Shown here piece by piece: positions 4,963 to 64,000 of a DNA stretch of 64,000 nt. A program made the translations under genes and the position numbers. The DNA is taken from positions 2,356,001 through 2,420,000 of the forward strand of contig NZ_CP107532.1 of the NCBI RefSeq assembly GCF_025813715.1. The letters are read 5' to 3'. This stretch comes from Methylobacterium sp. FF17. GTDB taxonomy: Bacteria > Pseudomonadota > Alphaproteobacteria > Rhizobiales > Beijerinckiaceae. How positions within the stretch are numbered: position 1 is the stretch's first letter; each line of letters opens with the position of its first letter. Below the pieces are notes generated by a model that was not told where the DNA came from, did not search any database, and saw only the letters and a list, made by a program, of their open reading frames with translations.

Positions 4963-5110
4963 GGCTCGACGCCTCCGCTGGGGACAGAATGGATCGTTGT
5001 GGCGGACCTAAGCCGGGAGGCTTGCGCGGGGCTGGATCGCTCTTTCGCCCCGCCGCGCGTTGACGCGCAGGGAGCCCGCGCGGCGCGGGCCCGACCCCAT
5101 GAGGAGCCAC

Positions 5111-15168: not shown

Positions 15169-16212
15169 ATGATCGGATCTCGTATGACCGGATTGCCCGC
15201 CGCGCTCGTTCGCCTGTCCGTCCTGCTCCTGGCCGCCCAGATGTCGCTCGCGCCCCTCGCCGCCCGCGCGGCGGACGACACCACGCCGCTCGGCATCGGT
15301 CTCGAGGGCTTCGCCTACCCGTATCCGGTCCGGTTCCTCGAGCGGACCCGCGACGGCGAGCGCCAGCGGCTCGCCTACATGGACGTGCCGGCGCAGGGGC
15401 AGCCCAACGGGCGCAGCGTGCTGCTCCTGCACGGGCGCAACTTTCCGGCGAGCTACTGGCAACCGGTGATCCAGGCGCTCGCGGGCGCCGGATACCGCGT
15501 GGTGGCCCCCGACCAGCTCGGCTTCGGCAAGTCGTCGAAGCCCGTGAGCCCGTTCAGCTTCGACACCATGGCGGCCGACACCGTGGCGCTCCTCGACGCC
15601 CTCGGCCTGCCCCGCGTCGACGTGGTGGCGCATTCCATGGGCGGCATGCTCGCGGTGCGCCTGACCCGCAACGCGCCGACCCGCGTCAACAGCCTCGTCC
15701 TCGAAGCGCCGATCGGCCTGGAGGATTACCGCTTCACGGTGCCGCCGGTCCCCGACGCGACCCTGCTGCGCCTGGAGGGCGATGCCACGGCCGAGTCCTA
15801 TCGCCGCCAGCTGATGACGAGCTATTCGCTCTCGCTGCCGGCCTCGGCCATCGAGCCCTTCGTGTCCCTGCGCGAGCGGGTGAAGGGCTCGGGCGAGTAC
15901 CCGCGCTGGCTCCAGTCCTTCGTCAATTCCTACCAAATCATCTGGGGCCAGCCCGTGGTGCACGAGATCCCGCTGATCGCGGTGCCGACGCTGTTCGTCA
16001 TGGGCGAGAACGACCACAACGCTCCCGGCAAGCCCTTCGCGCCGGAGGCCCTGCGCGCCGGCATGGGCCGCAACGCGGAGCACGCGCGGGCGCTGGCGGC
16101 GCGGATGCCGAATGCCCGCGCCGAGGTGCTGCCCGGCATCGGCCATCTCGTCCACATGGAGGCGACGGACCGCTTCAACGGGCTGACCCTCGAATTCCTC
16201 AACGGCCATTGA
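15169..16212 (+). CDS. Secreted alpha/beta hydrolase
   Basis: A 347-residue serine hydrolase with an N-terminal signal sequence (LVRLSVLLLAAQMSLAPLAARA, cleavage near residue 35), so it probably acts in the periplasm. The nucleophile elbow is AHSMGGM, the oxyanion region is LLLHGRNFPASYW, the acid is in VMGENDHNAPG and the base is His in GIGHLVHME. An alternative start at 15184 would shorten the N-terminus. The substrate is unknown. It is followed 25 bp later by a dehydrogenase that may share its transcript. Confidence 0.87.
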   Translation: MIGSRMTGLPAALVRLSVLLLAAQMSLAPLAARAADDTTPLGIGLEGFAYPYPVRFLERTRDGERQRLAYMDVPAQGQPNGRSVLLLHGRNFPASYWQPVIQALAGAGYRVVAPDQLGFGKSSKPVSPFSFDTMAADTVALLDALGLPRVDVVAHSMGGMLAVRLTRNAPTRVNSLVLEAPIGLEDYRFTVPPVPDATLLRLEGDATAESYRRQLMTSYSLSLPASAIEPFVSLRERVKGSGEYPRWLQSFVNSYQIIWGQPVVHEIPLIAVPTLFVMGENDHNAPGKPFAPEALRAGMGRNAEHARALAARMPNARAEVLPGIGHLVHMEATDRFNGLTLEFLNGH

Positions 16213-33044: not shown

Positions 33045-33137
33045 GGACGCGGCCCGCCCGGCGGACCCCAGGCGGACCGCCGCGATCGCGCTTTGCAAAC
33101 GTACTGGTATATCGTATTCCTAAGAGGAGGTCGGGTC

Positions 33138-49239: not shown

Positions 49240-49410
49240 GACGTCTCTCCCTTGTCGGCACCGGTCTTGTCGCGACCCGTCCGTTACTGATGGAACGTCC
49301 CGGGATCGGCCCCCGCTCCCGCGTCGCGTCTGACAATCCGTGGGCCCCGTCACCGGACCGGCCGGATCGGGACGCCGAGTCCGGCGGCCTCTGTTGACAC
49401 CCCCGGATCG

Positions 49411-49429
49411 TTGGCATACCAAATACCAA
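49411..49429. promoter_or_regulatory. Inverted repeat, candidate oxalate-regulon operator (site 1)
   Basis: TTGGCAT, 5 bp, ATACCAA forms a 7+7 inverted repeat with one mismatch. The same repeat with identical spacing is at 57292-57310 (upstream of oxlT) and in weaker form at 57758-57776. It is in the 388-bp gap upstream of the PAS-frc genes. Such sites are typical for GntR-type regulators, but no regulator gene is adjacent. Confidence 0.6.
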
Positions 49430-49577
49430 CGACGGAAGCAGAGAAAAAGCAAGTCGCCCAGCAAGTCGTTCGGGAAGTCATCGAGCCCGCTCATCGCGGT
49501 TCTGCGGCTTTCCCGAAAGCAAGTCCTCACGACGCTACCGGGCAGGGAGAGCCTGACGGTAAACAGAGGAGCGTTCC

Positions 49578-49631
49578 ATGCCACTCCAACCCATCAGCCG
49601 TTCGCGACGTCTCGGTCCCTGCGTACCGTGA
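49578..49631 (+). CDS. Short upstream ORF coupled to the PAS gene
   Basis: A 17-codon frame (MPLQPISRSRRLGPCVP) with a strong AGAGGAG site at the correct distance. Its TGA overlaps the GTG of the PAS gene (GTGA). The PAS gene has no ribosome site of its own, so this frame may load ribosomes for it by termination-reinitiation. A sequence error joining the two frames cannot be excluded. Confidence 0.45.
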   Translation: MPLQPISRSRRLGPCVP

Positions 49632-50110
49632 GGTCCGCCGGGGAGGGGCAGGTCGAGGGCCAGGGCCCGCAGGGCGCGACCTCGGCTCCCGAGATCGATC
49701 ACGCGGGACTGATCGCGGCGGCGGGCGACGCCATCGTGGTCTCCGATCCGGACGGCGCGATCACCCTCTGGAATCCGGCCGCCACGCGCATCTTCGGCTA
49801 CGCGGCGGAGGAGGCGCTCGGCCAGTCCCTCGACATCATCACGCCGGAGCGCCAGCGCCGCCGCCACTGGGACGGCTACGCCAAGACGATGCGGACGGGG
49901 GTGACCAAGTACGGCGCCGACGTCCTGCGGGTGCCGGCCATCCACAAGGACGGCCACGCCCTCTCCATCGCCTTCACGGTCGCGCTGCTGCACGGCCCCG
50001 ACGACCAGGTCACGGGCATCGCCGCGATCATCCGCGACGAGACCCAGCGCTGGAACGACGAGCGCGACCTGCGCCGGCGCCTCACCGAACTCGAATCCCG
50101 CGTCGCCTGA
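49628..50110 (+). CDS. PAS-domain sensor protein (stand-alone)
   Basis: A 160-residue protein from GTG 49628. A single PAS domain covers about residues 30-145: DHAGLIAAAGDAIVVSDPDGAITLWNPAATRIFGYAAEEALGQSLDIITPE, then TVALLHGPDDQVTGIAAIIRDET. There is no kinase, GGDEF or DNA-binding domain. The C-terminus is a charged helix (DERDLRRRLTELESRVA) suited to protein contacts. It is 120 bp before frc and shares its orientation and the upstream operator, so it may modulate oxalate use by redox or ligand sensing (inference). Confidence 0.75.
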   Translation: MRSAGEGQVEGQGPQGATSAPEIDHAGLIAAAGDAIVVSDPDGAITLWNPAATRIFGYAAEEALGQSLDIITPERQRRRHWDGYAKTMRTGVTKYGADVLRVPAIHKDGHALSIAFTVALLHGPDDQVTGIAAIIRDETQRWNDERDLRRRLTELESRVA

Positions 50111-50230
50111 GGGCGGCGCGTCGGACCCCGGCCAAGCCCAAGAACCCGGATCGACCGGGCAGACGTCACATCCCCCAAACAGACGTCACATCCCCAAGAA
50201 ACATCGCAACACGACAGGGAGAACGCCACG

Positions 50231-51481
50231 ATGACCAAGCCGCTCGAGGGTACCAAGATCATCGATTTCACCCACGTCCAGGCGGGGCCGGCCTGCACGC
50301 AGCTGCTGGCCTGGTTCGGCGCCGACGTGATCAAGGTCGAGCGCCCCGGCGCCGGCGACGTGACGCGCACCCAGCTCCGCCACGTGGAGGATGCGGACGC
50401 GCTCTACTTCACGATGCTTAACTCCAACAAGCGTTCGCTGACGCTGGACACCAAGACCCCCGAGGGCAAGGAAGTCCTGGAGACCCTGATCAAGCAATCC
50501 GACGTCATGGTCGAGAATTTCGGCCCCGGCGCTCTCGACCGCATGGGCTTCTCCTGGGCCCGCATCCAGGAACTGAACCCGGGCATGATCCTCGCCTCGG
50601 TGAAGGGCTTCTCGGACGGCCACCATTACGAGGACCTGAAGGTCTACGAGAACGTCGCTCAGTGCGCGGGCGGCGCCGCCTCGACCACCGGTTTCTGGGA
50701 CGGCCCGCCCACCGTCAGCGCCGCCGCCCTCGGTGACTCGAACACCGGCATGCACCTCGCCATCGGCATCCTCACGGCGCTCCACCAGAAGAACAAGACC
50801 GGCAAGGGCCAGAAGGTCGCCGTCTCCATGCAGGATTCGGTGCTCAATCTCTGCCGCGTGAAGCTGCGCGACCAGCAGCGCCTCGACGCGCTCGGCTACC
50901 TCGAGGAATACCCCCAGTACCCGCACGGCGAGTTCTCGGACGTGGTGCCGCGCGGCGGCAACGCGGGCGGCGGCGGCCAGCCGGGCTGGGTGCTGAAGTG
51001 CAAGGGCTGGGAGACCGACCCGAACGCCTACATCTACTTCACGATCCAGGGCCATGCCTGGGCCCCGATCTGCAAGGCGATCGGCCGCGAGGAGTGGATC
51101 GACGATCCGGCCTACAACACGGCGCGGGCCCGCCAGGACAAGATCATGGACATCTTCGGCACCATCGAGGAGTGGCTCGCCGACAAGACCAAGTTCGAGG
51201 CCGTCGACATCCTGCGCAAGTTCGACATCCCGTGCTCGCCGGTGCTGTCGATGAAGGAACTCTCCGTCGATCCGTCCCTGCGCGCCAGCGGCACCATCGT
51301 CGAGGTCCAGCACCCGAAGCTCGGCTCGTACCTGACGGTGGGAAGCCCGATCAAGTTCTCCGACATGCCGGTCGAGGTGAAGGCCTCGCCGCTCCTCGGC
51401 GAGCACACCGACGAAGTCCTGCTCGACCTCGGCTACACCCAGCAGCAGATCGAGCAGCTGCACCAGTCCCGCGCCGTCTGA
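50231..51481 (+). CDS. frc: Formyl-CoA:oxalate CoA-transferase (copy 1)
   Basis: Frc moves CoA from formyl-CoA to oxalate, giving oxalyl-CoA and formate. The 416-residue protein matches class III CoA-transferases. It begins [25 protein letters not shown], and the catalytic Asp is D169 in [10 protein letters not shown], the same number as in the Oxalobacter enzyme. The Gly-rich loop [11 protein letters not shown] is present. It is followed by a 10-bp perfect hairpin, so the PAS-frc unit ends here. A second copy is at 61126. Confidence 0.95.
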
Positions 51482-51516
51482 GGCGGACGCGGCGCCGGGA
51501 GCGCCCGACGAACACC

Positions 51517-51540
51517 ACGGCGCGCCGCGAGGCGCGCCGT
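51517..51540 (+). terminator. Terminator hairpin after frc copy 1
   Basis: A perfect 10-bp stem ACGGCGCGCC / GGCGCGCCGT with loop GCGA, 36 bp after the stop, followed by CTCTCGTTC. A GC-rich terminator with a weak T-rich tail. Confidence 0.7.
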
Positions 51541-51641
51541 CTCTCGTTCAAGGGGACCGGGCCCGCGCGGTGGGGGCTTGCCCGGACGGCGTCCGGTGAG
51601 GCAGGCGCGGTCCCGGTCTCGAAGGTGAGGTCGACCCTCCG

Positions 51642-52868
51642 ATGCGATTTGCCCTGCGCACCCTGATCCCCGAAGCCGCGCCCCTCAGCCTGCGCGAGCG
51701 CCTGCGCGCGGCCGGCGGGGCGCTCGTCGGCATCCTCGCCACGGGGCTGGTCTGCCGCGCGGCGCTGGGGCCCGAGACCGCCCTGCCGATCCTGATCGCC
51801 CCGATGGGGGCCTCGGCGGTGCTGCTGTTCGCGGTGCCGGCGAGCCCCCTGGCCCAGCCCTGGTCGATCGTCGGCGGCAACGCGGTGGCGGCCCTCGTCG
51901 GCGTCACCGCCGCGCTGCTGGTGCCCAACCCCTACGTCGCCGCCGCGCTCGCCATCAGCGTCGCCATCGCGCTGATGATGGCTTTGCGCTGCCTGCACCC
52001 GCCGAGCGGCGCCGTGGCGCTGACGGCGGTGCTCGGCGGCGCCCCGATCCGCGAGCTCGGCTACGGCTTCGCCCTGTGGCCGGTGGCGGCGAACTCGCTG
52101 CTGCTGCTGGCGGTGGCGCTGCTGTTCAACAACCTGACGGGGCGGGCCTACCCGCACGTCCTGCCGAAGGCGCCGGCCGGCCACGGCACCGGCGACCCGG
52201 CGCCGTCCGCGCGGGCCGGCATCACCGCCTCCGACCTCGACGCGGTGCTCAAGGATTTCGACCAGGTCCTCGACGTGCGCCGCTCCGACCTCGAGGCGAT
52301 CGTGCTGCAGGCGCAGATCCACTCCTACCGGCGCCGCACCGGCCAGGCGACCTGCGCGGAGATCATGTCCCGCGACGTCATCGCCATCGGCCCCGAGGCG
52401 CCCCTGCACGAGGCCCTCGACCTCCTGCGGCGCCACCACATCAAGGCCCTGCCGGTCACCGACGAGGGCGCGCGGGTGCTCGGCATCGTCACCCAGACCG
52501 ACCTCCTCGACAAGACGCGCTGGGATCAGGCCGGGCCGCGCCTCGGCCCGCGCCGCCGCCTCAGCCTGACGCTCAGCCGGGGCCGCGCCCCGCATGGCTG
52601 CGTGGAGGACATCATGACGGCGCCCGTGATCAGCGCGCGCCCCGACACCCCCATCGCCGACCTCGTGCTCTGGATGTCGGATGCGGGCCTGCACCACCTG
52701 CCCGTGGTGGGGCCGGACGAGCGCCTCGTCGGCATCGTCTCGCAGACGGACCTCGTGGCCGAACTCCTCGCCGATGCCGCCGAGCGCCACCGGCCCGCCG
52801 GCGATGCGAAGCGGGATTCGGGGATCCACCCGGTGGGGCGGCAACCCGCGACGCCTCTGCCGGTCTGA
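51642..52868 (+). CDS. HPP family membrane protein with C-terminal CBS domain pair
   Basis: A 408-residue protein. The first ~175 residues are the HPP membrane domain with four helices and the family signature RCLHPPSGAVALTAVLG. The C-terminal half has two CBS motifs: EIMSRDVIAIGPEAPLHEALDLLRRHHIKALPVTDE and DIMTAPVISARPDTPIADLVLWMSDAGLHHLPVVG. HPP proteins include plastid nitrite carriers, and CBS pairs sense adenine nucleotides. It is directly downstream of frc, so an anion-transport role is possible (inference). Confidence 0.88.
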   Translation: MRFALRTLIPEAAPLSLRERLRAAGGALVGILATGLVCRAALGPETALPILIAPMGASAVLLFAVPASPLAQPWSIVGGNAVAALVGVTAALLVPNPYVAAALAISVAIALMMALRCLHPPSGAVALTAVLGGAPIRELGYGFALWPVAANSLLLLAVALLFNNLTGRAYPHVLPKAPAGHGTGDPAPSARAGITASDLDAVLKDFDQVLDVRRSDLEAIVLQAQIHSYRRRTGQATCAEIMSRDVIAIGPEAPLHEALDLLRRHHIKALPVTDEGARVLGIVTQTDLLDKTRWDQAGPRLGPRRRLSLTLSRGRAPHGCVEDIMTAPVISARPDTPIADLVLWMSDAGLHHLPVVGPDERLVGIVSQTDLVAELLADAAERHRPAGDAKRDSGIHPVGRQPATPLPV

Positions 52869-53171
52869 TCCCGGAAGGCTCTCGCCGCCCCGCCTTTCCG
52901 GGAACCCGCGGGTCCCCTCTCCTTCGGGCGGAGGACAGGGTGAGGGACGTGGCCTCTCCGGGGATGGACGATCCCTCACCCCGAACCTCACCCGAAGAGG
53001 AGGGAGCCCCGCGTCGGGCGTCTCGGCCTTGCGAACCCGTCAACCGAACGCCGCATGAGGCCGCCGCGTCGGCGCCCGGAGGCATGCGGGGCGCTCAAGG
53101 CCGGGTGGCGTCCGGCCAGTTCGCGTGAACCGAAGCCGGGCTCCGGCGGTATCCGCCGCGAAGGAGTCCGC
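52869..53171. repeat. Intergenic region with a long palindromic repeat element (52914-53004)
   Basis: The arms are CCCTCTCCTTCGGGCGGAGG...AGGGTGAGGGA and TCCCTCACCC...ACCCGAAGAGGAGGG, separated by about 25 bp (52948-52971). They pair imperfectly over about 30 bp and resemble intergenic REP/BIME-type elements. The element is distinct in sequence from the 250-bp array at 39416-40270 but of the same style. No gene is supported in the region. Confidence 0.6.
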
Positions 53172-53216
53172 ATGAGCACCGAGACATGATGAGCACCGAG
53201 ACATGAGCACCGAGAC
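53172..53216 (+). repeat. Three direct copies of a start-codon segment
   Basis: ATGAGCACCGAGAC occurs at 53172, 53189 and 53203. The first two copies meet TGA after five codons; the third opens the EthD-like gene. Each TGA overlaps the next ATG (ATGA), so ribosomes loaded at AAGGAG (53161) at the first copy would need to reinitiate. It looks like a recent slipped duplication of the 5' end. Confidence 0.75.
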
Positions 53217-54228
53217 CAACCGCCGCGACGGAGCCGACCTCTCTCGCTCGGACCTGCTGCAGCGTCCGCCGCACGGCCGCCTCGTCGGCGCGACGACGAA
53301 GCCCCTGATCGTGACGCCGACCTTCGTCTCGCGCACCGACGCGACCCCGGAGGCGGTGCGCCCGCACGATGCGGGCTCGGGCGTGAACCGCTCCGGCGCC
53401 GAGGTCGCCCATCCGGACCGGCACCCGAGCGCCCTGGCCCTGGAGCCGGACCCGAACCGCGCCTTCGAGCATTTCGACGAATACTGGCGCAAGGTGCACG
53501 GCCCGAAATTCGCCTATGCGGAGCCCGGCGCCGCCAACGACGCGGTGCTGCGCTACGACCAGCTCCACCGGATCGCCTCCGGCCCGTCCTCGGCCTTCCG
53601 GCCGCCCTACCGGGCCATGGTGGACGGGAGCGGCCGCCTCGTCGGCGACCCCGCCGCCCGCGTGCCGGCCTATCGCCGCCCGCGCTGGGATGGCCTCGCC
53701 TACATCGCCTACGGGTCCGAAACCGAGATCACGGCGGTGCTCGGTCAGGAGCAGTACGCCAGGCGCATCATCGCCGACGAGCAGGTCGCCTTCCGGATGG
53801 TGACGCGCGAAGTCGCCCGGGAATACATCATCATCCCGAGCGAGCGGCACCGCGACCCGGTCAGCCTCGTCAAGATCCACCGCCGGCGCCCGGACCTGAC
53901 GCGCGCCGCGTTCCAGGAACGCTGGCTCGGGGTCCATGCCGACCTCGTGGCCGGCAAGGCGGCGAGCGCGGCCTATGTCCGGCGCTACGCCCAGCTCCAC
54001 CCCTTCGGATCGACCCAGGACGATCCCGAAGGCTCCCGGATCGACGGCATCTCGGTCCTGTCCTTCGCTTCCCTGAACGACGTCGAGGATTACCTGATCA
54101 CGCCCGACCACGCGGCCATCGAGGCGGACGAGGCGGACTTCACCGATCCGGCCGCCTCGGAGTTCTGGACGGCGGTGACCTACGCCGTGATCAACCGCCT
54201 GATGCCGGAACTTGCGACCGAGCGCTGA
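53203..54228 (+). CDS. Protein with two EthD-like domains
   Basis: A 341-residue protein. Two dimeric alpha+beta-barrel (EthD) segments can be seen: EHFDEYWRKVHGPKFAYAEPG with RYDQLHRI, and RAAFQERWLGVHADLVAG with YVRRYAQLHPFG. The central part and N-terminal 65 residues are extra. EthD-like proteins are small oxygenase or accessory domains with unclear chemistry. The gene starts at the third of three tandem ATGAGCACCGAGAC copies. It is in the oxalate region, but a link to it is not shown. Confidence 0.8.
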   Translation: MSTETNRRDGADLSRSDLLQRPPHGRLVGATTKPLIVTPTFVSRTDATPEAVRPHDAGSGVNRSGAEVAHPDRHPSALALEPDPNRAFEHFDEYWRKVHGPKFAYAEPGAANDAVLRYDQLHRIASGPSSAFRPPYRAMVDGSGRLVGDPAARVPAYRRPRWDGLAYIAYGSETEITAVLGQEQYARRIIADEQVAFRMVTREVAREYIIIPSERHRDPVSLVKIHRRRPDLTRAAFQERWLGVHADLVAGKAASAAYVRRYAQLHPFGSTQDDPEGSRIDGISVLSFASLNDVEDYLITPDHAAIEADEADFTDPAASEFWTAVTYAVINRLMPELATER

Positions 54229-54298
54229 CGCCGCCTCCGCCCGCCCGCGGGACGGAGCGGCGTCGCTCGGGCCGCGCGGCCGGGGCTGGTGAACCGCC

Positions 54299-55243
54299 TC
54301 AGGGTTGGACGGTGAAGCGCTGGCTGTATTCGACGGGGCCGTCGTTATGGCTCACGTCGACCCGGTACAGGCCCGGGGGCCAGCCCGCATCGGGCTTGCT
54401 CAGGCTGGACGAGACGGTGGGACTCGCCCCCAGCGGGATCGAGGTGGTGGCGATCGTGTAATTCGCCGGTGCGCCGTCCGCCTTCTCGGCGATCCAGGCC
54501 GTCGTCAGGCTGTCGCCGGTCTTGACCGCGCGGACCGCCAGAGCCAGCAGGATCTTGGGCGTGGTGCGGGCGAAGACCGTCTGGGGCGGGACGTCGCCGT
54601 CGCCCGGGAAGGTCATGGCCTTCGCGACATGGGCCGAATCCGACGGTGACGGGGCCGAGCCCGCGAAGGCCACCGACGCCGCGGCGGCCGCCATCGGCGC
54701 GGCCGCGGCGGGCACCGGCGCGACCGGCGACGGAGCCGCGGCGACGGGCGCCCTGGCCGGCGCGCTGTCGCAGCGGCGCAGCGACTCGTAGGCCTCGGGG
54801 AACCCGGCGAGCTTGAAGTCCGCGTCGGCGCCGTCGAGCTTGAGCACCATGATCTTGGCGGCCAGGAGGTTCGGCACGATGGTGTCGGGCAGGAGCGCCG
54901 TCAGGCTCTGGCCGTCGCCCGTCCAGGCCGATTTCGCGATGACGACCTTCTTGTCGAGGACGAACGGCACCCGGAGCTTCTCGTCCTTGTCCCAGGTCCA
55001 GTGCTCGTAGACGAAGCTCAGGAGGGCCTGGTCCCCCGCCAGCGCGAAGATCAGGGCGTTCACGGCGTCGTCGTCGTCGGGGTCCTTGTAGGACTTGCTC
55101 ATCAGGCAGACCGGCCCCTTCGTGCCGGGCGCCGTGCGCTCGATCTCCCAGCCCTTGACCGTCTCGAACGGGGTCTCGCCCGCCGCCCGCGCGGGGCCGG
55201 CGAGCAGGAGGGCCAGGGCCGTCACGGTGGCGATGCGTCTCAT
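54299..55243 (-). CDS. Secreted two-part hypothetical protein
   Basis: A 314-residue protein with signal peptide (MRRIATVTALALLLAGPARA) and GGAGGA upstream. The N-terminal domain (about 30-160) contains GWEIERTAPGTKGPVCLMSKSYKDPDDDDAVNALIF and one further Cys (LRRCDSA). A low-complexity Ala/Pro linker (about 160-200) leads to a beta-rich C-domain ending WPPGLYRVDVSHNDGPVEYSQRF. It is probably periplasmic or surface-exposed. Not recognised. Confidence 0.7.
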   Translation of the reverse strand: MRRIATVTALALLLAGPARAAGETPFETVKGWEIERTAPGTKGPVCLMSKSYKDPDDDDAVNALIFALAGDQALLSFVYEHWTWDKDEKLRVPFVLDKKVVIAKSAWTGDGQSLTALLPDTIVPNLLAAKIMVLKLDGADADFKLAGFPEAYESLRRCDSAPARAPVAAAPSPVAPVPAAAAPMAAAAASVAFAGSAPSPSDSAHVAKAMTFPGDGDVPPQTVFARTTPKILLALAVRAVKTGDSLTTAWIAEKADGAPANYTIATTSIPLGASPTVSSSLSKPDAGWPPGLYRVDVSHNDGPVEYSQRFTVQP

Positions 55244-55325
55244 GGTGTCCTCCGGGCGACGGGGGCGTCGCCATGGCCATCGACCTGCGCGGCCGACAGG
55301 AGCGCGGAGGCAGTGCGGACGAAGC

Positions 55326-55733
55326 TTAGCGGCCAAGTTCCGAATATAGCCAGGACGCGGCGGGGCCCTCTTCGAAGATCGGTAAACAATCCCTCGCTGC
55401 GGCGGAGGGTGAGGACCCGCGGGGATTCCCGGCGCGCAGGCCCGTCCGATCCGCCGGTGCCTGCGCCGCGCAGGGCAGCCGTGGGCCCGCGATCCCATCC
55501 TCCGCCCGGTCTCCCGCCAGCGCCTCGAACGGCAACCAGCCGGTGAACGGATCGAGCGCCGCGGGATCGGCCGACCGGTACCAGCGCCAGACCTGATGCG
55601 CCGCGTTCGGCGCGTACCAGCGCCCGCGCCGTCCCTCCGCCAGGATGGGGCCGAGGGTAAGATGGTTGAGCCAGATCCGCGCTACCGTCTCCGGGGCGGT
55701 GGACATCGGGTGCCAGGGGGCGGTGGGCGGCAT
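55326..55733 (-). CDS. Hypothetical protein (135 aa)
   Basis: An unrecognised 135-residue protein. The first 75 residues look folded and Trp-rich (WLNHLTLGPILAEGRRGRWYAP, HQVWRWYRSADPAALDPFTGWLPFEAL). The last 60 are Ala/Pro/Arg-rich and may be poorly conserved. Start may be ATG 55733 or the internal Met at 55706. It lies between the secreted protein gene and oxlT, all on the minus strand. Confidence 0.5.
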   Translation of the reverse strand: MPPTAPWHPMSTAPETVARIWLNHLTLGPILAEGRRGRWYAPNAAHQVWRWYRSADPAALDPFTGWLPFEALAGDRAEDGIAGPRLPCAAQAPADRTGLRAGNPRGSSPSAAARDCLPIFEEGPAASWLYSELGR

Positions 55734-55805
55734 CGAGCATCTCCGGTGCGACGGGCGGGGCTTCGACGTGTAGAGCGGGGCTTCGAGGCGTGAGCCCGGC
55801 TCCGA

Positions 55806-55847
55806 AAACGGGCGCGGGGGCCTGGACGTGGTGTCCGGCCCCCGCGC
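55806..55847 (-). terminator. Intrinsic terminator of oxlT
   Basis: An 11-bp perfect stem GCGCGGGGGCC / GGCCCCCGCGC with an additional inner GGAC/GTCC stem. On the minus strand it is followed by CCGTTTTCGG. It lies 33 bp past the oxlT stop and marks the end of that transcript. Confidence 0.8.
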
Positions 55848-55879
55848 GTCGTGGCGACGGTGATCCCGTCAGTCCGGCC

Positions 55880-57196
55880 TCACGCCACGGCGACGCGGGG
55901 GGCGGGCTTCGTCTCGTCGGAGACGGCGAGCGCCTGGGCGACGACCCGCTTGCGCCAGGGCTTCAGCACCGCGATGGCGAGCAGCGAGGCCAGCACGTTG
56001 GCGCCGGCCGCCACCAGGAACACGCCGTCCCAGCTGTTGGTGGCCTGCTGGAGATAGTTCGCCACCGGCACGAGGAGGGCCGCCGTGCCCTTGGCGGTGT
56101 AGAGCAGGCCCGCATTGGTGGCGGCGAACTTGGTGCCGAAGGTGTCCGTGCAGGTCGAGGGGAAGAGGGAGTAGATCTCGCCCCAGGCGAAGAACACGAA
56201 CCCGGACAGAAGCACGAACCACAGCGGGTCATGACCCCAGAGGTAGAGCATGTAGATGCCGAAACCTTCCATGGCAAAGGCGATGAACATGGTGTTCTCG
56301 CGGCCGATCTTGTCCGAGACCCAGCCGAAGAACGGACGCGTCAAGCCGTTGAGCACGCGGTCGATGGTGGCCGCGAAGGTGATCGCCACCATGGTGATGC
56401 CCATGATCGTGACCGGGACCTTGTCGACGCCGATGTCGGAGGCGATGGGCTTGAGGTTGGCGGTGATCATCAGGCCGCCGGCGCCGACGATGACGAACAT
56501 GAAGTACATCAGCCAGAAGATCGGCTGGCGGGCGACCTCGCCGGGGGTGTAGTTGCGCCGGGTCTGGATGATGTTGGCATTCGCCACGACTTCCGGAACC
56601 TGGCCCTTCTTCGGCGAGGTGAAGAAGAACGCCAGCGCGCAGACGACGATGCCCTGGCCGATGCCGAAGTTGAAGAACGCAGCCTGGAAGCCGTGATCGG
56701 CGATCATCCACTGGATCGGGGCGACGGTCAGCGCCGAGCCCGCGCCGAAGCCGGCGGCGATGATGCCGGCGGCCAGACCCCGCTTGTCGGGGAACCACTT
56801 CAGGGCCGAACCCACGCAGGTGCCGTAGACCGCGCCCGCGCCGATGCCGGCGACGACCTGGCCGAGATAGAACATGTTCAGCGAGGTGGCGTAGGAGTTG
56901 ATGACCCAGCCGATGCCGCAGAGCAGGCCGCCGAACAGCACCACGACGCGCGGGCCGTACTTGTCCACGAACCAGCCCTCGACCGGCACCAGCCAGGTCT
57001 CGAACAGCACGAACAGGGTGAAGGCCCACTGGATGGCGGCGCGGTCGAAGCCGAACTTCTTCTGGATGTCGGGGACGAAGAACGTCCAGCCGTATTGCAG
57101 GTTGGCGATCATCACCATGCAGATGACGCCGATGACGAGCTGTCCCCATCGATAACCGTCGGAGACGGGTTGGCTCGCAGTCTCTACCCTGGACAT
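55880..57196 (-). CDS. oxlT: Oxalate/formate antiporter (MFS)
   Basis: OxlT exchanges external oxalate for internal formate across the inner membrane. The 438-residue protein has 12 predicted helices and starts behind GGAGGA. Substrate-site residues known from the Oxalobacter protein appear conserved: Arg in GLTRPFFGWVSDKIGREN and Lys in YTAKGTAALLVPVANYL. The motif WFPDKRGLAAGIIAAGFGAGSAL is typical of the OFA family. It has its own terminator and its own operator-like repeat 96 bp upstream. Confidence 0.92.
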   Translation of the reverse strand: MSRVETASQPVSDGYRWGQLVIGVICMVMIANLQYGWTFFVPDIQKKFGFDRAAIQWAFTLFVLFETWLVPVEGWFVDKYGPRVVVLFGGLLCGIGWVINSYATSLNMFYLGQVVAGIGAGAVYGTCVGSALKWFPDKRGLAAGIIAAGFGAGSALTVAPIQWMIADHGFQAAFFNFGIGQGIVVCALAFFFTSPKKGQVPEVVANANIIQTRRNYTPGEVARQPIFWLMYFMFVIVGAGGLMITANLKPIASDIGVDKVPVTIMGITMVAITFAATIDRVLNGLTRPFFGWVSDKIGRENTMFIAFAMEGFGIYMLYLWGHDPLWFVLLSGFVFFAWGEIYSLFPSTCTDTFGTKFAATNAGLLYTAKGTAALLVPVANYLQQATNSWDGVFLVAAGANVLASLLAIAVLKPWRKRVVAQALAVSDETKPAPRVAVA

Positions 57197-57291
57197 GGCA
57201 TTCCTCCGGAAAGCTTGGTTGAAACGTGGGACGCGCGCGGTTCTTCGTCCGTCTTCGCGTCAAGGCCGTGTGTGCCGAACGTGACGTCGGC

Positions 57292-57310
57292 TTGGTATGT
57301 GGAATACCAG
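57292..57310. promoter_or_regulatory. Inverted repeat, candidate oxalate-regulon operator (site 2)
   Basis: TTGGTAT, 5 bp, ATACCAG: six of seven positions pair perfectly (TGGTAT / ATACCA). Spacing and sequence match site 1 at 49411-49429. It lies 96 bp upstream of the oxlT start codon. Confidence 0.65.
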
Positions 57311-57757
57311 GGTCTCTCGCGACGCGGCACCCGTCAAGAGTAGGATTTCGGGAATTCGATGCCGCGCCGCAGCAAAACTGCGGGATTCATCACATTCGTC
57401 GGGACTTTCGAAGCTTTTCGAGGGGCGCGCGCAGTAGAGATCACGGGATCGCCGCCGGTGATAGTCGTGCGGGAAACGGCCGGGATCGCCGCGCCGCGCA
57501 GGCGGTCGGATCGCGCAAAATGCATGATCCTGCATCCTCTTAAGGCGGCCCGTACAAGGGAGCTTCCGGGGACTCGACCGGGCCGATCGGCCCTGTCCGG
57601 GACCGTTTCGGGGTGCAATGCAGCAGGAAATTTCCTTCGACGGGCGGGTTTCGACGTTTGGTCCCGAAGCGTTCGAAGGCGCCGCAGGATTGGCTGCCAA
57701 CAAATCGTCGACTCTGTCAGGCGCGGCGGCAGGATATTTCAGATCGCCGGTTGACGG

Positions 57758-57776
57758 TTGAAATTCTGTATACCAG
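57758..57776. promoter_or_regulatory. Degenerate operator-like repeat (site 3)
   Basis: TTGAAAT, 5 bp, ATACCAG. The right half equals that of site 2 and the left half has two mismatches to TTGGYAT. It is 43 bp upstream of the CBS-domain gene. A weak third member of the set. Confidence 0.4.
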
Positions 57777-57818
57777 TGTCGCTGCAACAAGAATTCATGG
57801 GTTCGGAGGGGCCGCGCC

Positions 57819-58262
57819 ATGCCCGAAGGCCAGCAAGCGCGCAGCGATGGCGCGCGTGTGCGAACGATCCGCATGCATCATTCGGTGCGCGATGCCATTC
57901 GGATTCTGTCGCAGCCGGATGTTGATGCCGTGATCGTCGTGGACGGGGAGCGCGACGACAGCGGCGGCTTCATCGGAATCCTGACGGAGCGCGAGATCTT
58001 CCGTGCGATGGCCGATCAGGGACTGGATGTCCTCGACCATCTCGTCTGGACGTTGACCACGGGCGAATTCGCCTCCGTGGACATCCAGGCGACGCCCGCC
58101 GACCGCCTGCAGGCCTTCTGCGCGCACAAGGTCAACCACCTGGCGATCATGGACGGCCTCTGCCTGCATGCGGTCGAGAGCATCTGGGACTGTGTCGCGC
58201 AAGGTTCAGGCGGGGCGATGTCGAGCGGAGCGCCGGTGGACGAAGCTTACGGTCGGTCTTGA
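57819..58262 (+). CDS. CBS-domain signalling protein (147 aa)
   Basis: A 147-residue protein with GGAGGGG upstream. Two CBS motifs fill most of it: VRTIRMHHSVRDAIRILSQPDVDAVIVVDG...FIGILTEREIFRAMADQG and FASVDIQATPADRLQAFCAHKVNHLAIMDG. CBS pairs bind AMP, ATP, NADH or SAM. No other domain is present, so it should act on a partner protein. It is the first plus-strand gene of the right part of the oxalate region. Confidence 0.85.
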   Translation: MPEGQQARSDGARVRTIRMHHSVRDAIRILSQPDVDAVIVVDGERDDSGGFIGILTEREIFRAMADQGLDVLDHLVWTLTTGEFASVDIQATPADRLQAFCAHKVNHLAIMDGLCLHAVESIWDCVAQGSGGAMSSGAPVDEAYGRS

Positions 58263-58510: not shown

Positions 58511-58795
58511 ATGCGTTATCTGGCGATCCTCGACTGCCCCGTGACCTTCAGCGGCGAGAACAGCTACGGGATGACCAGCGTCGACATGTGCCCGTCCGCC
58601 GGGATCACGCGCGGCCTCATCAGCCGCCACGTGAAGGTGGTCGACGGCCGCCTGATCGCGGTCTGCATCTGGACGAGCGAGTTCTGCAGCCGGGTGTTCT
58701 TCGACACGGCCTGGTACGAAAAGGCCGGCGAACTCTGGGGCGACCAGTACCAGCTCCGGCTCGAGGCCATCGACGAAGAGACCCAGGCGGCCTGA
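58511..58795 (+). CDS. Conserved-looking hypothetical protein (94 aa)
   Basis: The ATG 58511 has AGGAAA upstream. The product starts MRYLAILDCPVTFSGENSYG, has three Cys residues and an aromatic-rich C-terminal half (CSRVFFDTAWYEKAGELWG). The size and pattern could fit a small dimeric alpha+beta barrel, but I do not recognise the family. It ends 28 bp before the P-loop gene and probably forms an operon with it. Confidence 0.7.
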   Translation: MRYLAILDCPVTFSGENSYGMTSVDMCPSAGITRGLISRHVKVVDGRLIAVCIWTSEFCSRVFFDTAWYEKAGELWGDQYQLRLEAIDEETQAA

Positions 58796-58823: not shown

Positions 58824-60659
58824 ATGCCGAATCGCGCCGGGTCGCTCCCGCCGGACCCGGACGATGCCGCGCCTTACGGCCCCTGGAACCCTGGAATCGA
58901 GTCGAGCCTGCCCCGGGCGATCCTGCCGCTCGCCACGGTGTTCCGGCCCGAGAACGTCGAGACCTCCCTCGCCGACGCGTTCGAGATGAGCGACGTCAGC
59001 GGCCTGCCGCTGACCCACCTCGTGCGCTTCCGGGCCGGTCGCCTCGTCATCCACGAGGTCCTGATCCGGGTGATGGCGGATCTGTCCGTCCCGGTGGGGC
59101 AGACCTACGGCGACCTCGGCGTGAACTTTCGCGCGATCGTCTCGGCGATCCTGCGGGGTGAGATTGCTACACAGGCCCTGCCGCTTGATGCACGTCTGGC
59201 GGTCCTCCGCGCGCATACTGATGCACTCTTGGAAACCGAGATTTCCGCGATGCTCGGGGAGGGCGCGCGCGGCGAGGCCCCGTCCCGACGCCGGGGTTGG
59301 GCGGCGCTCTTTCGACGGGAAACGGTCCCCGGCCGGCACCCCACCGCATCTCTCGACCCGGAAACCCGCGCCGCACGGCACCTGGAGGATTGGGAGCAGC
59401 GAGCCGCCGCCTCGGGCGATCCCCGGGCCATCGCGGCCTGCGCCGCCCTGGGAAACGTGGTCGCGAGCCTGATCGGCCGGCGCGGATTCCTCGTTCGCGA
59501 CAAGGCTTTGCTGAAGCAGCTCGCGCTCACCCTGGTGTCGAACGGCTATGGCAGCCGCGTCCTCGGCGAGTTGATCGAGCCCTGGGTGCAGGCGGTGATC
59601 GAGCGCGAAGGTTTCGTGCGCCTCACCCCGCAGGCCTCCCCGGTCATCATGAACGTGAAGGGCTCGTCCGCCTCCGGCAAGAGCACGATCCGGCCGTATC
59701 AGCGTGCGCTGACGCAGGCGCTCGGGCTGGACTGGGCTGATTTTGCGCTTATCACACCGGATGTCTGGCGGAAATACCTGCTCGATTACAACAGCCTCGG
59801 CGACGCCTGGCGCTATGCCGGGCCGCTCACCGGGCACGAGGTCGAGATCATCGATCGAAAGCTCGACGGATACATGGCGCGCAAGGCCGATGCGGGGCGC
59901 ATTTCGCACCTGCTCATCGATCGCTTTCGGTTCGACAGCTTCGCGGTCAATCCCGGGACCGAACTCGGCAGCCAGCTCCTCACCCGCTTCGGACGCCAAG
60001 TCTACATGCAGTTCATGATCACCCCGCCGGACGCGACGGTGGAACGGGCCTGGAAACGCGGCGAACAGTTCGGCCGCTACAAGGCCGTGGAGGACCTCCT
60101 CGCCCACAACGTCGAAGCCTATACGGGCATGCCACGGCTGTTCTTCACCTGGGTTCTACGCACGGACAAGGAGGTCCACTTCGAGTTTCTCGACAACAGC
60201 GTGCCCGAGGGTGAGCGGCCGCGCACGATTGCTTTCGGCACGAATGGCGAAATGAACATCCTCGACGTGCGATTCCTGTTCGACATCGACCGCTACCGGG
60301 CCATCAACATCCAGGCTCGCGCTCCCGAGGAGGTCTATGCCGGCCTGCCGCCGCGGGACGCGCCGGGCGACATGCGCTTCCTGCGCGATTGCCTGCGCCG
60401 GATGACCACGATCCGCTTCGCCGATCACGCCACGGGACGGGTCCTCGCCCGGCTCGACCACGGTCGCCTGACCGGTCTCGAGGAGGACGCCGCAGCGATC
60501 CACGGGGTCCTCGCAGCCCTGGAATTGCTGCCGACGGCGCGGCCGGTCGCCACCTGCGGAGAGACCCTGTGCCAGCGTCAGGCCCGCACCCTCGGCGCCT
60601 GGGGGCAGGGCGGCAGGCAACGGATCCCCGTTGAGGCAGCACCGCGCCATTTCGCGTAA
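58824..60659 (+). CDS. Large P-loop kinase-like protein related to zeta-toxin/UDP-GlcNAc kinases
   Basis: A 611-residue protein of unknown function. The Walker A motif GSSASGKST is at residues 280-288. Next come ITPDVWRKYLLDY (310-322), GPLTGHEVEIIDRKLDGYM and LIDRFRFDSF. This order (P-loop, xDPDxxR-like motif, then a helix with HEV) resembles zeta-toxin-type and related small-molecule kinases, but the N-terminal 275 residues are unique. It has no membrane segment and no antitoxin-like neighbour. It is embedded between oxalate genes and follows the CBS and 94-residue genes. Confidence 0.72.
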   Translation: MPNRAGSLPPDPDDAAPYGPWNPGIESSLPRAILPLATVFRPENVETSLADAFEMSDVSGLPLTHLVRFRAGRLVIHEVLIRVMADLSVPVGQTYGDLGVNFRAIVSAILRGEIATQALPLDARLAVLRAHTDALLETEISAMLGEGARGEAPSRRRGWAALFRRETVPGRHPTASLDPETRAARHLEDWEQRAAASGDPRAIAACAALGNVVASLIGRRGFLVRDKALLKQLALTLVSNGYGSRVLGELIEPWVQAVIEREGFVRLTPQASPVIMNVKGSSASGKSTIRPYQRALTQALGLDWADFALITPDVWRKYLLDYNSLGDAWRYAGPLTGHEVEIIDRKLDGYMARKADAGRISHLLIDRFRFDSFAVNPGTELGSQLLTRFGRQVYMQFMITPPDATVERAWKRGEQFGRYKAVEDLLAHNVEAYTGMPRLFFTWVLRTDKEVHFEFLDNSVPEGERPRTIAFGTNGEMNILDVRFLFDIDRYRAINIQARAPEEVYAGLPPRDAPGDMRFLRDCLRRMTTIRFADHATGRVLARLDHGRLTGLEEDAAAIHGVLAALELLPTARPVATCGETLCQRQARTLGAWGQGGRQRIPVEAAPRHFA

Positions 60660-60854
60660 GCAACTCACTTTGTTGAGGTATCGACGCTAGGGTTTCCCAT
60701 CGCGGATGGGCCCGGCGGTGGCTCGGGCCGGTCCCCGGTCTGGTGTGCCAGCTTACAGCCATGCTTTCGGAACAGCCCTGATGGCTGGAATGTGATATAT
60801 CCAATCGCAGTGCAACATGGCACAACGGCACCGCACCATCCCGGGAGGCCCGCC

Positions 60855-61016
60855 ATGCTCGCAACCGTTCTCGTCTCGACCGTCAGCCTGATCGCCCTGC
60901 AGGTCATCCTCGTGGTCAAGCTGGCGGATTGGATGTCCCGGGCCACCGGCAAGGTCGAGGGCCGCAACCCGGTCGTGTCCGGCAGCGTCAACGGCCGCTT
61001 CGCGGGCATCGCCTGA
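60855..61016 (+). CDS. Single-helix membrane peptide (53 aa)
   Basis: The ATG at 60855 has GGGAGG upstream. The product is one hydrophobic helix (MLATVLVSTVSLIALQVILVVKL) followed by a polar tail ending NGRFAGIA. It lies between the P-loop gene and frc copy 2. Unknown function; it might modify a transporter such as OxlT, which is only a guess from size and place. Confidence 0.6.
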   Translation: MLATVLVSTVSLIALQVILVVKLADWMSRATGKVEGRNPVVSGSVNGRFAGIA

Positions 61017-61125: not shown

Positions 61126-62400
61126 CTATTCCGCCGCGATCTTCCGGACGCCCCCAATGGCTCCGGATTCCGCGATCCTGAGGCAGTCCGCGTCCGAGTA
61201 GCCGAGGACGGACCGCAGGATCTCGTCGGTGTGCTCTCCCAGCAGCGGCGACCGGGTGATCTCGGTCTCGCTCGCCGAGAGCCGGATGGGGTTGCCGACG
61301 GTCAGGTACTTGCCCCGCGTTGGGTGATCGACCTCCACCACCGTGCCGGATTTGCGCAAGGACTCGTCCTCGGCGATCTCCTTCATCGACAGGATCGGGC
61401 CGCACGGCACGTGCAGGGCGTTGAGGATCTCCATTGCCTCGAACTTGGTCTTCGACATCGTCCAGGATTCGATCCGGGTGAAGATCTCGTTGAGGTGGGG
61501 AAGACGGGCTTTCGGTGTCGCGTAGTCCGGGTGGGTCGCCCAGGCCGGCTCGCCGATCACGTCGCAGATCTGCGGCCAGACCGCGCCCTGCGTGATGAAG
61601 TAGATGTAGGCATTGGGATCGGTCTCCCAGCCCTTGCACTTCAGGATGCGGCCGGGCTGTCCGCCGCCGGAATCATTTCCGGCGCGCGGCACGGAATCGC
61701 CGAACGGAATACCTTCGCCGTACTGGCTGTACTCAGGCAGGGGGCCGCGCTCCAGGCGCTGCTGGTCGCGCAGCTTCACCCGGCAGAGATTGAGCACCCC
61801 GTCCTGCATGGCGCAGTCCACGCGCTGACCGAGGCCCGTCTGGGTCCGGTGGAAGAGGGCGGTCACGATGCCCAGCGCCAAGTGGAGGCCGGTGCCGGAA
61901 TCCCCGATCTGGGCGCCCGTCACCATGGGGATGTCGGTCCGGAAGCCCGTCGTCGAGGCCGCGCCGCCGACGCATTGCGCGACGTTCTCGTAAACCTTGC
62001 AGTTCTCGTAGGCGCCGGGGCCGAAGCCCTTCACGGAGGCCAGGATCATGCGCGGATTGGCGGCGTGGATCGCCTCCCAGGTCAGGCCCATCCGCGCCAG
62101 CGCGCCGGGCGCGAAGTTCTCGACCAGTACGTCGCACTCGTCGATCAGCCGCCAGAGCACCTCGATGCCCTTCGGGTTCTTGGTGTCGAGGGTGATCGAG
62201 CGCTTGTTGTGGTTCAGCATCGTGAAATAGAGGCTGTCCACGTCGGGAATGTCTTGCAGTTGCTGGCGCGTGGCATCGCCGACACCGGGCCGCTCGACCT
62301 TGATCACGTCGGCGCCGAACCAGGCCAGCAACTGGGTGCAGGTCGGGCCGGACTGGACGTGGGTGAAGTCGAGGATCTTGACGCCTTCGAGGGCTTTCAT
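61126..62400 (-). CDS. frc: Formyl-CoA:oxalate CoA-transferase (copy 2)
   Basis: A second class III CoA-transferase of 424 residues, clearly related to copy 1 at 50231 but divergent. The start ATG 62400 gives [25 protein letters not shown]; a GTG three codons upstream is possible. The catalytic Asp is in [10 protein letters not shown] (D167 here). Differences from copy 1 are a Gly-rich loop of [10 protein letters not shown] and a longer C-terminus. It is 113-122 bp behind oxc, the usual partner, so this is probably the main oxalate-degradation pair. Confidence 0.94.
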
Positions 62401-62522
62401 GGGGCTCACCCGGTTCTGGGGCGAAGGGGGCGACGGCCGTCTTCACGGCCGTCGCGTCCGACGTGAGCGGGGCGGGAGAGCGTCCCCGCGAGGGGAGGGG
62501 AGCCCGCGCCGGGTCCCTTGGG

Positions 62523-64000
62523 TCAGGCGGGCTTCTTGCGCACCGTGCTGGTCGGGTTCAGGCTGCCGATATTGCCGCTCTCGGTGCCGGCGGCGGGGTC
62601 GATCACCGCGTTGATCAGGGTCGGACGCCCTGAGTCCATCGCCGCGTTGACAGCCTGCGAGAGTTCGTCCGGCGTGGTGACGTTGACGCCGACGCCGCCG
62701 AAGGCCTCCATCATCTTGTCGTAGCGCGAGTCCTTCACGAAGACCGTGGTGCCGGGGTCGCGCCCGGTCGGGTCGATGTCGGTGCCGCGATAGATGCCGT
62801 TGTTGTTGAAGACCACGATGCAGACCGGCAGGTCGTACCGGCAGATCGTCTCCACCTCCATGCCGGAGAAGCCGAAGGCGCTGTCGCCCTCCACCGCCAG
62901 CACCGGCTTGCCGGTCTCGACGGCGGCCGCGACGGCGAAGCCCATGCCGATTCCCATGATGCCCCAGGTGCCGACATCGAGGCGCTTGCGGGGCTGGTAC
63001 ATGTCGATGATGCCACGGGCCAGATCGAGGGTGTTGGCGCCCTCGTTGACCAGGATCGCGTCCGGCCGCTCCTTGATGATGGTGCGCAAGGCCCCGAGCG
63101 CACCGTGGAAGTCCATCGGCGTCGAGTTCTTCTTGAGCTTCGACGCCATCTTGGCGAGGTTCTCCTCCTTCTTGGCGCTGATCGCGTCGGTCCAGGCGGC
63201 GGGCGGTGCCTGCCAGTTCTGGCCCATGCCATCGAGGAGGGCGGAGACGCAGGAGCCGATGTCGCCGACCACGGGGGCGACGATCTCGACGTTCGAATCC
63301 ATCTCCTTCGGCTCGATGTCGATCTGGATGAACTTCTTCGAGCCCGGGGCGCCCCAGGTCTTGCCCTTGCCGTGCGAAAGCAGCCAGTTCAGGCGCGCGC
63401 CGACCAGCAGGACGACGTCGGCTTCCTTCAGCACGAGCGAGCGCGCCGCGCCGGCGGACTGGGCATGTGTGTCGGGCAGGAGGCCCTTGGCCATGCTCAT
63501 CGGCACGTACGGGATGCCGCTGCGTTCGACGAGGTTCCGGATCTCCTCGTCGGCCTGGGCGTAGGCCGCGCCCTTGCCGAGTACGATGAGCGGCCGCTTG
63601 GCGCCCTTCAGCACATCGAGGGCGCGGGCGATGGCGCTGGGCGCCGGCAGCTGCGCCGGGGCGGCGTCGATCACCTTGACCAGGGACTTCGCACCGGCCT
63701 CGGCGTCCATGACCTGGCTGAATAGCTTGGCGGGGAGGTCGAGATAGACGCCGCCCGGGCGGCCCGACACGGCGGCGCGGATGGCGCGTGCCACCGCGAT
63801 GCCGATATCGGCGGCGTGCAGCACCCGGAAGGCGGCCTTGCACAGGGGCTTGGCGATGGCGAGCTGGTCCATCTCCTCGTAGTCGCCCTGCTGCAGGTCG
63901 ACGATCTCGCGCTCGGAGGAGCCCGAGATCAGGATCATCGGGAAGCAGTTGGTGGTGGCGTTGGCGAGCGCCGTGAGGCCGTTGAGGAAGCCGGGCGCGG
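62523..64000 (-). CDS. oxc: Oxalyl-CoA decarboxylase, partial (5' end beyond window)
   Basis: Oxc decarboxylates oxalyl-CoA to formyl-CoA and CO2 with thiamine diphosphate. The frame is open to the right edge and covers 491 C-terminal residues; about 80-90 N-terminal residues with the catalytic Glu are missing. Visible: [43 protein letters not shown], the TPP-binding [18 protein letters not shown] with NNNGIYRG, and the CoA-site region [13 protein letters not shown]. Internal Met 63938 is not the start. It is probably cotranscribed with frc copy 2. Confidence 0.95.

Follow-up and report, generated by a model that had tools for sequence, protein, structure and literature searches.

GntR-family regulators of the FadR subfamily, such as the UxuR, HypR and PrpR groups with their 2-nt GT-AC operator spacing, combine a GntR helix-turn-helix (HTH) with a FadR-type C-terminal domain, are associated with A/T-rich TKGT/ACMA palindromes and are encoded divergently from the structural operon (PMC4494728; this source, PMC8012715, PMC11323563 and PMC13344952 are all cited here from partial texts). 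For the same subfamily, extra half-boxes 7-12 nt from the operator centre and effectors such as carboxylic acids are described (PMC4494728). Here we compare with these systems a set of operator-like sites in the oxalate gene cluster of Methylobacterium sp. FF17, contained in a 64,000-nt stretch of its genome (NZ_CP107532.1, positions 2,356,001 to 2,420,000; hereafter the window), in which an earlier note made from the letters of the DNA had pointed out a recurring 19-bp inverted repeat. Our analysis indicates that these sites are very probably the operators of one FadR-subfamily (FCD-domain) GntR regulator, which is encoded divergently from oxc-frc2 and would be relieved by oxalate or a close product.

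The locus shares with the above FadR-subfamily regulons the domain combination, the A/T-rich palindrome with its spacing and the divergent regulator gene; unlike them, it has an oxalate gene set, and the consensus conserved among its sites includes a third half-site at a constant step of 7 bp. A second point of comparison is NanR of Escherichia coli, a GntR-type repressor whose (GGTATA)3 operator likewise brings several half-sites with a GGTAT core close together, and which provides a precedent for the binding of several dimers to closely repeated GGTATA half-sites (PMC8012715). It is also among the solved relatives of the regulator described here (6on4, E 3e-8). The NanR repeats are direct and serve sialic acid genes, whereas here the two inner half-sites are mutually inverted, the third is an added copy and the genes are those of oxalate use; hence, these sites may work like the NanR direct-repeat operator without being a member of that type. 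GlcR of Paracoccus denitrificans is also an alphaproteobacterial GntR-family regulator and a repressor of C2-acid (glycolate) metabolism, but it controls glycolate oxidase in place of oxalate genes, and the likeness noted here is one of family and C2-acid role (PMC11323563). The best NCBIfam match of the regulator, TIGR03338, represents the PhnR-like GntR regulator of Burkholderia; as its 120.2 bits are far under the curated cut-off of 271.5, we do not consider the regulator a member of that family.

No regulator of Methylobacterium oxalate genes is described among the open-licence literature matches listed, which were mostly judged by titles and the starts of abstracts, and the word 'regulator' does not occur in the main text of PMC12927642. 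The available part of PMC13344952 presents oxalate as a carbon source on plant leaves, the Methylobacterium habitat, and treats growth on oxalate, the oxalate/formate antiporter, the pH rise and a different regulator, CstR, which is a single-domain response regulator.

The operator-like sites and the regulator gene past the window edge

The three 19-mers of the earlier note were recovered at 49411, 57292 and 57758, and the genes behind them are those it had named, namely a PAS-domain gene with frc, oxlT, and the gene of a CBS protein; frc and oxlT score well over the NCBIfam equivalog cut-offs. The sites and the core genes are as follows:

49411..49429, + strand: predicted operator 1, TTGGCATACCAAATACCAA, which precedes the PAS-frc1 unit and consists of the 12-bp palindrome TTGGCATACCAA and a third half-site
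57292..57310, no strand assigned: predicted operator 2, TTGGTATGTGGAATACCAG, upstream of oxlT
57758..57776, + strand: predicted operator 3, weaker, TTGAAATTCTGTATACCAG, upstream of the genes for the CBS, 94-residue and P-loop proteins
60785..60803, + strand: weak operator-like site, CTGGAATGTGATATATCCA, ahead of a small transmembrane (TM) protein gene; degenerate, like other P-loop-linked members
49394..49399, + strand: TTGACA, candidate -35 hexamer 11 nt 5' of operator 1, with a putative promoter role
57751..57756, + strand: TTGACG, candidate -35 hexamer 1 nt 5' of operator 3
49628..50110, + strand: PAS-domain protein, 160 residues in the frame used, start codon uncertain (Pfam PAS, 6e-14)
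50231..51481, + strand: frc1, formyl-CoA:oxalate CoA-transferase (TIGR03253, 720 bits, cut-off 504)
55880..57196, - strand: oxlT, oxalate/formate antiporter (TIGR04259, 633 bits, cut-off 335)
61126..62409 (L020:2127-3410), - strand: frc2, downstream of oxc (TIGR03253, 701 bits)
62523..64000, - strand, cut by the window end: oxc, oxalyl-CoA decarboxylase (TIGR03254, 1018 bits), which runs on to window-equivalent 64301 (start codon L020:5302, by eye)
64883-65572, window-equivalent (start L020:5884), divergent from oxc: GntR/FCD regulator gene, 230 residues, ~0.9 kb beyond the end of the window

A scan of the window with TTGGTATN5ATACCAG, allowing three mismatches, returned seven matches against 0.31 expected, a number reached by none of 100 shuffles. 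These matches comprise both strands of the sites at 49411 and 57292, the site at 57758 and two weak sites (33104 and 60785). Operators 2 and 3 sit in a single divergent intergenic stretch (57197-57818) between oxlT and the CBS gene. The weak match at 33104-33122 (+ strand; CTGGTATATCGTATTCCTA, two mismatches) stands directly before the ribosome-binding site of a short open reading frame (ORF) and could be due to chance.

The consensus of 80 distinct oriented sites is YTGGTAT-N-TGGTATRCCAR. Columns 7, 11, 13, 14 and 16 are conserved at 99-100%, all except column 11 having belonged to the scored bases; G fills column 11 in 99% of the sites and T column 9 in 80%, percentages that are somewhat inflated by the orientation having been chosen partly on these two columns. 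Thus, the outer repeat TTGGTAT-N5-ATACCAA of the earlier note is real but incomplete, in that its 'N5' contains a conserved TGG. The unit consists of a 12-bp FadR-type palindrome, TTGGTATRCCAR, and a third half-site 7 bp away: with the palindrome on the inside and the extra half-site on the outside, the 19-mer corresponds to the outer pair of a three-half-site operator. The site consensus contains TGGTATRCCA, a TKGT/ACMA palindrome whose 2-nt GT-AC spacing agrees with the 2-3 nt that define FadR-subfamily operators and is listed for several groups of the subfamily (PMC4494728). The outer half-site falls into the same 7-12 nt range from the centre for which that source describes extra boxes.

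The bare 12-mer core occurs at seven places in the FF17 genome against five for its reversed control; because it is not specific genome-wide by itself, the 19-bp form was used for the counts given below. Apart from the one at 2405411, the 12-mer places comprise 873878 and 4605278, which belong to the regions of oxlT paralogues, and 252907, 1252026, 1420888 and 3301287, which were inspected and are not claimed as operators. Among the other matches in this genome, the site at 875626, which an oxlT paralogue follows at ~75 bp (counted to its matched part), looks real. We make no claim for 4118554, near the coding start of a PAS-like ORF, for 5037416, 2518317 and 187992, inside called ORFs, or for 2447626. 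Likewise unclaimed is the site C1:4351824 (L022:6825; TTGGTATTTTGAATTCCAA), which lies ~480 bp upstream of a pyrroloquinoline quinone (PQQ) methanol/ethanol-type dehydrogenase gene that is followed by a methanol-metabolism cytochrome gene. The genome has four oxlT-like genes (C1:2411883, 1825933, 874295 and 4605420), three of which have the operator or its 12-mer core upstream; for C1:1825933, inspection by eye of the upstream stretch that was read revealed none.

According to the earlier note, the sites have no regulator gene next to them. A genome-wide search overturns this: a fourth site (C1:2420583, window-equivalent 64583-64601) is located 583 bp past the window end, is identical to the site at 49411 at 18 of 19 bases and lies between oxc-frc2 and a divergent GntR/FCD gene, ~280 bp from either start codon. 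Both the gene and the site had been invisible to the note because the window edge hides them. Its guess of a plausibly GntR-type regulator is supported, as the repeat is found where the GntR regulator is found and the product of the oxc-linked gene contains an N-terminal GntR winged HTH (PF00392, 1.1e-11, 44.6 bits against a cut-off of 27) and a C-terminal FCD/FadR helical ligand domain (PF07729, 2.6e-25, 89.7 bits against a cut-off of 24.3). Within the HTH, 30 of the 38 positions from 44 to 81 are invariant in 55 orthologues (at least 60% identity). In an alignment read by eye, the residues N144, H148, H192 and H214 fall opposite D, H, H and H in 3sxy/3fms, the positions of the metal site (D/N, H, H, H) in FCD domains; they are thus candidate metal-site residues, of which H148, the one counted, is invariant in 95 sequences.

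Phyletic co-occurrence and conserved placement of the sites

Among 111 genomes from the genus, 93 encode the regulator (E<=1e-60), and oxlT is found in the same 93 (E<=1e-120). The PAS gene occurs in 91 (E<=1e-30), oxc over its curated cut-off in 90, with one further copy split over two contigs in G108, and the CBS gene in 46 (E<=1e-10), all of them regulator-positive. For the P-loop gene (85 genomes, E<=1e-30) the division is 85 of 93 regulator-positive against none of 18 regulator-negative genomes, and none of the other counts draws on those 18 either. The refined motif YTGGTATNTGGNATRCCAR, allowing one mismatch, follows the same pattern, with 90 of the 93 and none of the 18; its backwards-pattern control gave three matches over all 111 genomes. 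Among the regulator-positive genomes without the motif (G077, G084 and G092), the first two are also without a confident oxc and a PAS gene.

A comparable picture emerges from 249 genomes drawn evenly from the order (homologue threshold E<=1e-55, exact motif match): 65 have a regulator homologue and 27 the exact motif, with 26 of these 27 also holding the homologue. Outside the genus this applies to 22 of 23 motif genomes, and the control pattern has no matches. In the six pairs measured, 36-136 bp separate the exact site from the homologue that follows it, counted to its matched start. The Fisher values, 6e-18 for the genus and 2e-16 for the order, both ignore relatedness.

The conservation that the earlier note had proposed to look for in related genomes was found: the repeat is kept ahead of orthologous PAS-frc, oxc/gntR, oxlT and CBS genes. 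We scored 14 bases in distinct 600-bp upstream regions, which lean towards close relatives because the best matches of each search were used. The best site has at most two mismatches in 22/30 regions of the regulator, 20/30 of CBS, 28/30 of PAS and 15/29 of oxlT, and at most three in 27/30, 25/30, 30/30 and 20/29, respectively, the CBS counts including sites nearer oxlT in the shared intergenic stretch. In 290-300 shuffles per gene class two mismatches were never reached and three in 0-1%. In 55 larger loci (20 from 17 genomes and 35 from a scan of named genomes, near-identical ones kept) there are 92 sites with at most two mismatches; 85 of these lie within 400 bp upstream of oxalate-cluster genes, and none falls in the 363,232 coding bases defined by matches to 13 reference proteins. 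A looser count (three mismatches, 450 bp upstream), which takes in distant paralogues and second or internal operon genes, places a site before oxc in 28/59 cases, GntR in 55/101, oxlT in 53/92, CBS in 22/32, PAS in 32/38, frc2 in 9/55 and oxlT4-like genes in 0/15; the oxlT4 of FF17 nevertheless has a bare 12-mer, CTGGTATACCAA, upstream. Outside the genus, a site precedes GntR2-oxc-frc2-(PAS)-frc1 in 13 of 13 loci, from 11 Ancylobacter, Bosea sp. 117 and a Xanthobacteraceae metagenome-assembled genome, with regulators 62-65% identical.

What we observe in these comparisons is a common motif, a conserved placement and a co-occurrence with the regulator gene, and genome comparison gives good support to one shared regulator for the sites.

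Proposed mode of regulation and its alternatives

As to binding, ligand and the sign of regulation, including repression over activation, we infer these from DNA alone. A regulator dimer would bind the 12-bp palindrome, and the third half-site, 7 bp away, might bind a second dimer or stabilize the first. A TTGACA-like -35 hexamer stands immediately before the operator at the promoters of oxc and CBS, an arrangement in which the bound regulator would block RNA polymerase. TTGAC lies within 16 nt 5' of the site in 27/28 cases at oxc and 18/22 at CBS, compared with 182 of 7840 random positions (2.3%). Given the carboxylate effectors known for the FadR subfamily, we propose a repressor relieved by oxalate or oxalyl-CoA: the FCD pocket would accommodate oxalate itself or one of its close products, such as oxalyl-CoA, formyl-CoA or glyoxylate, and the release of the DNA would switch on uptake (oxlT), activation (frc1, frc2) and decarboxylation (oxc) along with the accessory genes for the PAS, CBS and small TM proteins. 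The site inside the oxc/gntR divergon further suggests autoregulation.

Several observations weigh against this reading. TTGAC is found 5' of the site in 0/53 cases at oxlT, 4/32 at PAS, 18/55 at GntR and 4/9 at frc2; these differences in arrangement imply that the mode of action may differ by promoter. By the looser count no 19-mer site precedes oxc in 31/59 cases, GntR in 46/101, oxlT in 39/92, CBS in 10/32, PAS in 6/38, frc2 in 46/55 and oxlT4-like genes in 15/15. The exact motif is absent from 39 of the 65 order genomes with a regulator homologue, and G092 combines oxc and the regulator with no motif. Operator 3 is weak in FF17 itself and has four mismatches in eight of its nine nearest CBS relatives. 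Finally, the P values overstate the association, both through the relatedness of the genomes and because a small number of losses may account for the 18 negatives.

The alternative that fares best, though we consider it unlikely, retains the operators and the regulator and makes the latter an activator, or a repressor at some promoters and an activator at others, with an upstream site recruiting RNA polymerase. It would suit the PAS site, 60-238 bp before its gene, and the oxlT site, mostly at 109-268 bp, both mostly without an adjacent TTGAC, and GlcC is an activating member of the FadR subfamily (PMC11323563, in part); however, the sites behind the TTGAC hexamer at oxc and CBS would cover the promoter, and both NanR and the Paracoccus GlcR are repressors (PMC8012715 and PMC11323563, in part). 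It is more doubtful still that the sites are bound by another FadR-subfamily protein, or by several paralogues of overlapping specificity, with the oxc-linked regulator as only one of them. A further homologue is indeed found in certain genomes, with an identity that is mostly 47-60% (72 and 74% in G025) and in some cases beside PAS-frc or oxc, and a basic HTH is common to all groups. On the other hand, FF17 has a single match (E<=1e-60), whose gene flanks a site, and across genus and order the sites track the oxc-linked regulator.

That the repeat is no regulator site and instead a shared promoter or RNA element, or a mobile repeat, is highly improbable: although the sites are located at promoters and the likeness of the small-TM copies extends beyond the operator (to a second element, GTGCGGTGC..ATAT), the symmetry is of the FadR type, the sequence beyond the 19 bp varies between promoter classes, and the motif is missing both from the 18 regulator-negative genomes and from the coding bases of the 55 loci. 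Chance similarity among AT-rich promoters of a GC-rich genome, which could appeal to the unspecific 12-mer, is refuted by the orthologue comparison, with its conservation across families and its shuffle results for the 19-mer. We hence favor the FadR-subfamily repressor encoded beside oxc.

The CBS, P-loop and small membrane protein genes

The remaining genes between operator 3 and frc2 are:

57819..58262, + strand: CBS-domain protein, 147 residues (Pfam CBS, 4.5e-8)
58511..58795, + strand: 94-residue protein of no family, whose orthologues sit between CBS and P-loop; no match in Pfam or NCBIfam
58824..60659, + strand: P-loop protein, 611 residues, with only a sub-threshold Pfam Zeta_toxin match (E 0.015)
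60855..61016, + strand: 53-residue single-TM protein, a member of the operator-linked small-protein family

The earlier note had drawn the uncharacterized genes into an oxalate regulon. In the genus, the CBS and P-loop genes are indeed confined to regulator-bearing genomes; for control of the P-loop gene by the site the support is weak. More distant relatives have a stronger CBS site, for example TTGACAACAGGTATTCTGTATACCAG, 58-95 bp before the CBS gene. Of 30 P-loop loci fetched, 19 include a CBS gene, and 10 of these 19 have a CBS-proximal site (three mismatches or fewer), while the 11 loci without CBS have no site of their own. Outside the CBS clade, control of the P-loop gene by its own site is unsupported, since eight of these 11 loci lack a site upstream (~1.45 kb) and three have only the divergent oxlT site. 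In FF17 the P-loop gene may be transcribed together with the CBS and 94-residue genes; the gaps of ~250 and ~30 bp in this series leave room for another promoter. Relatives of the P-loop protein are labelled at source as hypothetical or 'zeta toxin family protein'.

A family of small proteins came to light through further operator copies in relatives, of which 20 were picked from among the matches listed and 16 examined (L280, L282, L283 and L288 were left out; in two, the site is inside a called ORF). In 12 of the 16 copies the start codon of a protein of 50-70 residues with one hydrophobic span follows 68-111 bp after the first base of the site; over 24 sites tested, nine lack such a gene (L274, L277, L289, L290, L149, L150, L152, L021 and L022). 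The FF17 genome has three of these genes, at C1:873666-873821 (L026), C1:4607377-4607541 (L024) and window 60855-61016. Two of the three adjoin oxlT paralogues, and at both a second small membrane protein (..FA.LY.S.LGLVL..) stands between oxlT and the operator, the one in L024 having been read by eye. The family comprises dispersed proteins of 49-71 residues with one membrane span and the pattern M[IL]AL..LAA..ANxxLVVxxADRLTPK...NEN..AA; none of 15 members scanned has a Pfam match. Among seven members, the differences amount to 0.11 at the first, 0.08 at the second and 0.30 at the third codon position, as expected where selection acts on the protein that the frame encodes.

A profile of 15 members, which is blind to operators yet built mostly from operator-found members, matches (E<=1e-4) in 82 of the 93 regulator-positive and none of the 18 regulator-negative genomes (82 of 111 in total). 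Thirty of its matches were fetched: seven were already known (three without a site at three mismatches or fewer), one was a duplicate and 22 were new. Fifteen of the new members have a site within three mismatches of the refined motif (nine within two), at a distance of 74-88 bp and with a single orientation; none of 440 single-base shuffles gave such a site. Seven have no such site, and five of these belong to the P-loop-linked (MLAT/MLGT) subfamily with its degenerate form. With modest confidence, we favor the view that the oxalate regulator also controls this family, whose members may serve as dedicated partners in the membrane, either for oxalate/formate exchange or for the alkaline and energy-poor state that comes with growth on oxalate.

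Some side observations concern these neighborhoods. A second conserved element, GTGCGGTGCGATATAG..ATCGCAACGCAAC, lies between operator and start codon of small-TM genes (for example in L275, L278, L281 and L285), and a further small ORF (..LA.L.EAFG..) is found near the operator at L149 ~4926-5105, L150 ~14316-14480 and L151 ~15393-15611. Downstream of frc1, the window encodes an HPP transmembrane protein with two CBS domains (51642-52868), a homologue of which adjoins frc1 in seven of 20 regions (L149, L150, L151, L153, L156, L162 and L164). The frc1 copy at L155:7763-9009 matches as two overlapping pieces, as if frameshifted, either in the gene or in sequencing.

Taken together, the comparison gives good support to a system of an ordinary kind, a predicted GntR/FadR-subfamily regulon, for which the candidate regulator has now been identified and the putative operator refined; the set of small membrane proteins fronted by further sites would be new. 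Testing can thereby start from a named gene, a precisely delimited putative operator and a list of genes. The comparison also ties otherwise unknown genes, those of the PAS, CBS, 94-residue, P-loop and small TM proteins, to oxalate use, and offers a set of promoters predicted to be oxalate-responsive.

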